A DNA stretch of 36,865 nt, taken from IMG/VR virus record IMGVR_UViG_3300020123_000146, positions 1 to 36,865 of that record; one strand, written 5' to 3'. The notes under the pieces were generated by a model. The model was not told the DNA's origin. It did no database searches and saw only the letters and a list, made by a program, of their open reading frames with translations. The translations under genes were made by a program, and so were the position numbers. Shown here piece after piece: positions 2,733-4,204 of the stretch. Numbering within the stretch: position 1 is the stretch's first letter; each line of letters begins with the position of its first letter. This DNA is from a virus.

Positions 2733-3079
2733 CAGGCACTCTCCCGGCGGTCGATGGCCTCAACCCAGGCGACGGCCACGGCGGCCACCTGCACCAGTTC
2801 GGCGCGCAGCACGCACGGTGCGTTTGCGGCGGCGGCCTCGTGGAACTCTTCGGCGAGCACCCCGTGCCATGTGGTGGTGCCGTGCTTGGCTGCGGCCTGC
2901 ACCTGCCTGCGCACCATGTCTGCGGCGAAGCCGCTGTAGAGCGCCCCGGCCGCCATGACCGGCCAGGCCGGGCCGGTGCCGTCGGGGTGATTCTGCTCGC
3001 CCCACTTGATGTTTTGCCGAATGCGTTCGTCGGTCACGTCGCGCAGCACGCGTTCAGTGGCCGGGTCGGTGAAGATCAT
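2729..3079 (-). CDS. MazG-like nucleotide pyrophosphohydrolase family protein
   Basis: A 116-residue all-alpha protein. It has ERIRQNIKWGEQNHPDG near residues 18-34, then LAEEFHEAAAA and LRAELVQVAAVAVAW in the second half. The EE-x-x-E helix followed by an E-rich helix resembles the MazG-like NTP pyrophosphohydrolase group found in many actinophages. MazG enzymes hydrolyse nucleoside triphosphates to monophosphates; in phages they may control nucleotide pools or alarmone levels. The second metal-binding helix lacks a clear ExxD, so activity is uncertain. The ATG at 3079 overlaps the DpdA-like stop, placing it in the same translation-coupled string as the DNA modification pair. Confidence 0.55.
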   Translation of the reverse strand: MIFTDPATERVLRDVTDERIRQNIKWGEQNHPDGTGPAWPVMAAGALYSGFAADMVRRQVQAAAKHGTTTWHGVLAEEFHEAAAANAPCVLRAELVQVAAVAVAWVEAIDRRESAW

Positions 3080-3723
3080 GCCGGTGACCTTTCGGTTTGA
3101 TCGAGGGCCCATAGGGCCTGCTGCTGGTCAAGTTCGCCCAGCCACGACAGCAGCCCGGGCAGGTTGCGGTCGGGGCCGAACGCGAGATATGTGCCGTCGA
3201 CGGAGTGACACCCCATCTGGGCTGCGATGCGTAGGCGGCGCCGGGAGTTGACGCGTCCCATGTGGACGTGTTTGCCGTGGGCCCTGGCGTCGGCCGTCAG
3301 CCGGCGGGCGTGCGGGCCGATTTTCCAGTCGGTGTCACCGCCCAGAAACAGCACGTCGAATGTCGACCACGGCACGGCCAGGTGCTCCAAACCGTTCTGT
3401 GCGGCCAGGGCAACGGGGTAGCCGGCGGCCCTGATGCGGCCCAGCATCGGCGCGGACCGGTCGAGGGTGGCGGCGGCGTCGCACACCACGTCGGGGGCGA
3501 CGGCGAAGGCGCACCGGTCCGCGGCCCACGTCCGTTCGCCGAGCCATGACAGGTACGCGTCGTCACCGGGGTAGTTCTCGGCGATGAACGCGGCGTTGTC
3601 GGCGCACCAGTCGACGCCTGGGAGGACGCGGTTGCCTGCGGCCGGTGTGACGATCTGCCCGAGGAGTCCGGCGGTCATGGCGTCACGCGCCTTGGGCCCG
3701 GACGCGGTTGCGTAGTACCGCAC
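3076..3723 (-). CDS. dpdA: DpdA-like 7-deazaguanine DNA transglycosylase
   Basis: A 215-residue TGT-like protein. DpdA proteins exchange guanine in DNA for a 7-deazaguanine (preQ0 or derivatives), protecting phage DNA from restriction. Visible elements are the N-terminal RYYATASGP (2-10), WCADN with Asp42 and Asn43, VAPDVV (75-80), AAQNG (107-111), LFLGGDTDWK (125-134), HMGRVNS (154-160) and SVDGT (174-178, Asp176). These match the order of base-binding and nucleophile loops in the family. I chose GTG at 3723 because it keeps the RYYATASG start typical of relatives; an ATG at 3678 would remove it. The gene overlaps the VUT transporter gene by 41 bases, a strong sign of a joint role. Which base is inserted, and at which sequence, cannot be read from the DNA. 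Confidence 0.75.
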   Translation of the reverse strand: MRYYATASGPKARDAMTAGLLGQIVTPAAGNRVLPGVDWCADNAAFIAENYPGDDAYLSWLGERTWAADRCAFAVAPDVVCDAAATLDRSAPMLGRIRAAGYPVALAAQNGLEHLAVPWSTFDVLFLGGDTDWKIGPHARRLTADARAHGKHVHMGRVNSRRRLRIAAQMGCHSVDGTYLAFGPDRNLPGLLSWLGELDQQQALWALDQTERSPA

Positions 3724-4204
3724 GCACACCCACCACCCCGAGCACGACGGCAAGCGTGATCCACGTTTTGCCGACCAGTTGGCCGGCGACGACAAGCGGC
3801 GCGAGGCCGAAGCCGGCGATGGTGAGGAACACGAACGTGTCGACGACGGACCCGACCAGGTTGGAGGCGATGGCGGCACGGATGTAGCCGCGCCTGCGGA
3901 GCGGTGTGTACACGGACATGTCGATCAGTTCGCCCAGCCCGAATGCGGCGGCCGAGGCGAGCGCCAGTTGCGGTGTGGACGCGAACCACGACAGCACCGC
4001 GCCGGCCAGCAGCACGCATAGGGTGGCGACCCGGCCGGCCGTGTCCTGCACCGCGTCACGGGCCACGAACGCCAGGCCGGCCATGTAGGTGCCTGCTGTG
4101 GCCGCCAGGCCGAATCCCATGGGGACGAACCCATACCGGGCGGTGAGCCAATTCGCGGCGACGATGCTGCCGAGGTAGGCGAAGACGGATAGCGCGCGCG
4201 TCAT
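3683..4204 (-). CDS. VUT/YhhQ-family 7-deazaguanine precursor transporter
   Basis: A 173-residue membrane protein with about five or six hydrophobic segments. It carries the VUT-family signatures: the RDAVQD loop (49-54), GELIDMSVYTPLR (91-103) and SNLVGSVVDTFVF (114-126). Bacterial YhhQ (about 220 residues) imports the queuosine precursors preQ0 and preQ1. The next gene downstream is the DpdA-like transglycosylase, so this protein most likely supplies its substrate. Start is the ATG at 4204 overlapping the upstream stop (ATGA). It is somewhat shorter than host members, mainly at the N-terminus. Substrate choice among preQ0, preQ1 and queuine is inferred from the family. Confidence 0.8.
   Translation of the reverse strand: MTRALSVFAYLGSIVAANWLTARYGFVPMGFGLAATAGTYMAGLAFVARDAVQDTAGRVATLCVLLAGAVLSWFASTPQLALASAAAFGLGELIDMSVYTPLRRRGYIRAAIASNLVGSVVDTFVFLTIAGFGLAPLVVAGQLVGKTWITLAVVLGVVGVRAVLRNRVRAQGA

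Follow-up and report, generated by a model that had tools for sequence, protein, structure and literature searches.

Two overlapping genes of an uncultured phage encode a small DpdA-like transglycosylase and a VUT-family transporter. The pair is conserved in phages, plasmids and bacterial genomes, with the synthesis genes QueC, QueE and QueD replacing the transporter in some relatives. It is likely that the two genes constitute an import-and-insert module. The VUT transporter would bring in a 7-deazaguanine, as a queuosine precursor and most likely preQ0, for a host that does not produce this base itself. The transglycosylase would then swap guanines of the phage DNA for the imported base, and the DNA modified in this way would block host restriction enzymes. 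As the transporter is replaced by QueC/QueE/QueD in relatives, the enzyme would work with whichever supply is present.

The window analysed here is a stretch of 36,865 nucleotides from a single IMG/VR virus record (IMGVR_UViG_3300020123_000146), which is linear, possibly a fragment, and has 70% G+C. Integrase, terminase, ERF, YqaJ/RecE and RusA genes are present in the record, and the terminase matches chiefly those of Mycobacterium, Gordonia and Arthrobacter phages, at about 30% identity. Given its integrase, terminase and recombination genes, the record probably represents a temperate actinobacteriophage. Both open reading frames and their overlap lie where the sequence-only reading had placed them (Table 1). 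The GTG start is supported by close relatives of the TGT-like protein, which share both the aligned start residue and the overlap. Judging from codon comparison, the reading frames of both genes are constrained: in comparison with four relatives, identity is 67–88% at codon positions 1 and 2 and 50–65% at position 3 in both frames. No dpdB, dpdC or restriction gene was recognised among the annotated genes of the window.

Table 1. Location of the two genes and their overlap in the window.
Feature	Position	Strand	Remarks
DpdA-like transglycosylase gene	3076..3723	-	GTG start, 215 aa
VUT-family transporter gene	3683..4204	-	ATG start, 173 aa, Pfam Vut_1
Overlap of the DpdA-like and VUT genes	3683..3723	-	41 bases; recurs in relatives

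The DpdA-like protein belongs to a family that common models do not recognise. A Pfam scan of the 215-aa protein and its relatives gave no match, including to TGT (PF01702) and DpdA (PF23859), and the protein matches phrog_15826 (6.8e-76), a family of unknown function. Because no TGT came up when the family profile was searched against solved structures, a structure prediction was needed. The AlphaFold model is a confident eight-stranded barrel (pLDDT 93.5). TGT occupies the top rows of the VIA-align comparison (Z 15.4, rmsd 2.8 over 199 residues), with an unrelated barrel scoring close to it at Z 14.9. The best Foldseek hits include TGT and the DNA preQ0 insertase DpdA (7ui4), with other barrels ranking above both, and several phage DpdA are also among the hits. 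On the basis of the model, the 215-aa protein is confidently predicted to be a TGT-type barrel.

The kinship of this family was addressed by profile-profile alignment (hhalign), with shuffled columns as the background control. The family scores 46–47 versus eight phage DpdA proteins, whereas the column-shuffled controls reach at most 23.9. The score is at background level with bacterial TGT, and only slightly in excess with Pfam-DpdA-type proteins (27.6 versus 25.7 for shuffles). By profile, phage DpdA is the closest kin when compared with bacterial TGT and Pfam-DpdA-type proteins. The DpdA kinship, for which the sequence-only reading had named the lack of any DpdA match as the decisive counter-evidence, is borne out by these scores and by the modelled barrel. 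Two formal memberships were rejected. The Pfam DpdA model is unmatched, as it also is by the 9g-type Sonali gp87, and membership in the canonical TGT family (PF01702) finds no backing in Pfam or in hhalign.

Residues D42, D78, Q109, G129, H154 and D176 are invariant in 21 aligned relatives and still invariant in 93 of 93 rows of the larger alignment; K134 and R157 are also invariant within the family. In the AlphaFold model D42, D78, Q109, G129 and D176 sit at the ends of successive barrel strands. Conserved residues at successive strand ends are the layout known for TGT. The sequence-only reading had proposed D176 as the nucleophile. Its position at the end of the last strand and its invariance (93/93) are as expected for the putative nucleophile, but its match to the DpdA nucleophile is left unsettled by sequence, since the hhalign alignment is offset by three residues around D176. 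H154 was aligned by hhalign with His196 of 9g DpdA, a residue conserved in 9g-type DpdA and missing in DpdA2 (PMC6884629). As an observation on family diversity, two members (L008:6001-6714 and L010:4081-4773) present an insertion with CxxC pairs, zinc-ribbon-like, just after the conserved GG, at a site that differs from the canonical TGT zinc site.

The transporter matches Pfam Vut_1 (PF02592) with an E value of 4.5e-12 and 47 bits versus a curated cut-off of 27.2, as do 13 of 13 aligned relatives, and hydropathy of the 173-aa protein indicates about six membrane segments. A search of solved structures by sequence with the VUT profile gave no match. The proposal of a VUT/YhhQ transporter thus held at the family level (PF02592) and not at the finer one, the protein falling below the NCBI queuosine precursor transporter/YhhQ equivalog cut-offs (TIGR00697, 42.5 versus 50.95; PRK11212, 34.1 versus 252). 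Being above the Vut_1 cut-off and below the equivalogs, it is by these profiles a VUT-family member, and we infer that its cargo would be preQ0.

The fold is common to tRNA-guanine transglycosylases, and the usual role of VUT transporters is to supply the tRNA queuosine pathway. This could mean that the pair acts on tRNA, with preQ0 or preQ1 imported by the pump and placed in tRNA by the small TGT during infection. We consider this unlikely: the profile kinship is with phage DpdA and not with bacterial TGT, and the sequence of the 215-aa protein stops soon after the barrel and lacks the zinc-binding part found in TGT. The genes are also located in mobile DNA, in the window among recombination genes. 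Besides, TGT is absent from all eight bacterial genomes found to carry the TGT-like family, an absence that is not significant alone, given that 43 of the 198 genomes sampled from the class have a TGT. QueC matches in the hosts were discarded; they cover about 60–70 residues with 21–28 bits in frames mostly longer than 500 aa, and were read as GMP-synthase-like.

A slightly less probable alternative is that the imported base is used outside nucleic acids, for example in protein conjugation. A remodelling of this kind is reported for the TGT-family Cap10 of type IV CBASS (PMC11996544), and the present family is itself short and divergent from TGT. However, the conserved strand-end residues that base exchange would require are all present and invariant, and in the profile comparison the family matches phage DpdA.

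The association of the two genes is far beyond chance. In IMG/VR, 477 stretches encode relatives of the TGT-like protein; the best 80 were examined, of which two were cut and 78 evaluable. Among these best 80 of 477, 60 of the 78 evaluable relatives have a VUT gene immediately upstream in the same orientation, in most cases overlapping, and 18 of the 80 have none in the vicinity. These fractions, like those for VUT loci below, are descriptive, because the loci were selected for their resemblance to the query families and near relatives are among them. Overlapping genes are common in phages and VUT is missing from the vicinity of 18 of the 80 relatives, but a fortuitous adjacency in a compact phage genome is practically excluded, because the pair is conserved in 60 of 78 evaluable relatives, reaches down to about 47% identity with the window's protein, and recurs in phages, plasmids and bacterial genomes. 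Conversely, in 60 of 80 phage VUT loci a member of the TGT-like family or a 9g-type DpdA is encoded no further than 2.5 kb away. Of the remaining 20 loci, 13 are near an ORF with an LDSGG motif and TGT-like sequence. Two of these ORFs were scanned and both match Pfam DpdA (268 and 302 bits); the others of the 13 were assigned by resemblance. A fourteenth LDSGG match (L205) was left uncounted, as it looked unlike a real gene.

The gene pair is also found in Rhodococcus, Arthrobacter and Mycobacterium phages, and the VUT gene adjoins the TGT-like gene in Aoka, GreaseLightnin and ReqiPine5. The pair is present on a Streptomyces plasmid, on an Azospirillum plasmid with VUT downstream, and in Micromonospora and Streptacidiphilus genomes. 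In Micromonospora andamanensis (L020:5157-6325) both genes are frame-split, either because this copy has decayed or through a sequencing error, and an ORF that looks integrase-like by eye lies near the pair. In the Fishburnevirus phages Brusacoram and Atcoo (L224:2501-2764 and L225:2501-2764), the VUT match is limited to the first ~57 residues and there is no DpdA-like gene, as if a single deletion took most of the module. Cyanophage Pam5 (L227:3052-4531) and Rhizobium phage RHph_X2_30 (L226:4001-5700) combine VUT with a ~230-aa protein matching the phage DpdA profile, a further short form of the module. About 160 plasmids, most of them from Pseudomonas, carry a distant branch of the family; at the loci examined (L013:5764-6423, L035:4842-5657 and L065:4001-4642), no VUT gene was seen in the vicinity. 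A gene with a PAPS-reductase domain is near the TGT-like gene in L035 and L065, and adjoins it in ReqiPine5. An Erythrobacter phage member of the family is annotated as a DarB-like antirestriction protein.

How the base could be supplied is indicated by the relatives without VUT. In the window's own record, the QueC family search gave no match, and phage FolE, QueC, QueD and QueE used as tblastn queries found nothing at E 0.1; for these four genes, the earlier statement that no synthesis gene is visible stands. Among the relatives, none of the 22 VUT-lacking records has a VUT gene elsewhere. QueC or QueD is present in nine of these 22 records versus none of 28 VUT-bearing ones (Fisher p 2e-4, records treated as independent). 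In several records QueC or QueD occupies the slot upstream of the TGT-like gene that is otherwise that of VUT: the gene order is QueC-QueE-QueD-TGT in three loci (L078, L079, L121), and the gene directly before the TGT-like one is QueD in L080 and L127, QueC in L130 and QueE in L111. In Sonali the TGT-like gene is without VUT, and QueC, QueD and QueE are located a few kb off beside a second DpdA, of 9g type. Neither VUT nor QueC/QueD is found in 11 VUT-lacking IMG/VR records of the 78, several of which are short fragments. When the ability to make the base is placed as a label on the tree, 8 changes are counted, at least 3 of them forced by well-supported branches. Independent contrasts go in the expected direction whenever they differ, and are too few for significance. 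An unusual multi-copy version is seen in L012:1-5151, where three neighbouring TGT-like paralogues alternate with two QueC genes, QueE and QueD come next, and VUT is lacking. The suggestion that the phage imports the base instead of making it is supported by the swap of VUT with QueC/QueD/QueE. At the level of gene content, the data support a supply-plus-insert module that would use preQ0, either imported or made.

DNA 7-deazaguanines and DpdA have already been published (PMC6884629), and the label "DpdA-like" is already on several public relatives: Sonali gp81, Aoka gp40 and GreaseLightnin gp55, named "DpdA-like tRNA-guanine transglycosylase", belong to the same family with 48–57% identity. 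Compared with these actinobacteriophage members, the window's protein is divergent and comes from an uncultured phage; the annotation of their VUT neighbours is mostly "hypothetical" or "membrane protein". With phage DpdA of 9g type the family has in common the TGT-type barrel, profile similarity, His196 and, in some members, linkage to QueC/QueD/QueE. It differs in size (~215 aa versus ~290–360 aa) and in supply, which is here usually a VUT transporter and there synthesis genes. The transporter has PF02592 in common with the YhhQ preQ0 transporter (COG1738), but is shorter. Bacterial dpd islands also contain a DpdA homologue, whereas only two genes are present here; in these islands, preQ0 synthesis genes are nearby or, in about 9%, YhhQ (PMC11888242). 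In haloviruses HCTV-1 and HCTV-16, YhhQ coexists with the synthesis pathway (PMC8651126), and import and synthesis are therefore not exclusive everywhere. Base uptake by phages with DpdA only was raised as an idea by Hutinet et al. in 2019, who found YhhQ uncorrelated with any phage group and reported that phage Orion, with DpdA and no synthesis genes, has no DNA modification (PMC6884629). In our literature search, with doi 10.1093/nar/gkad657 outside its scope, no description was found of the tight VUT/DpdA-like pairing or of the swap.

Hutinet et al. left open whether DpdA phages without synthesis genes modify their DNA. What is added here is a defined small DpdA-like family tightly tied to VUT, with synthesis genes as the alternative. 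We can predict that modification should depend on the supply of the base. There is about an even chance that a wider reading holds, in which a minimal mobile two-gene module of phages, plasmids and bacteria devoid of the queuosine pathway would scavenge the preQ0 of other microbes and, by means of a single-domain transglycosylase, write it into DNA, such that resistance to restriction would depend on what the neighbours release. If import and insertion are true, the protection of the phage against restriction would hinge on a nutrient from its surroundings.
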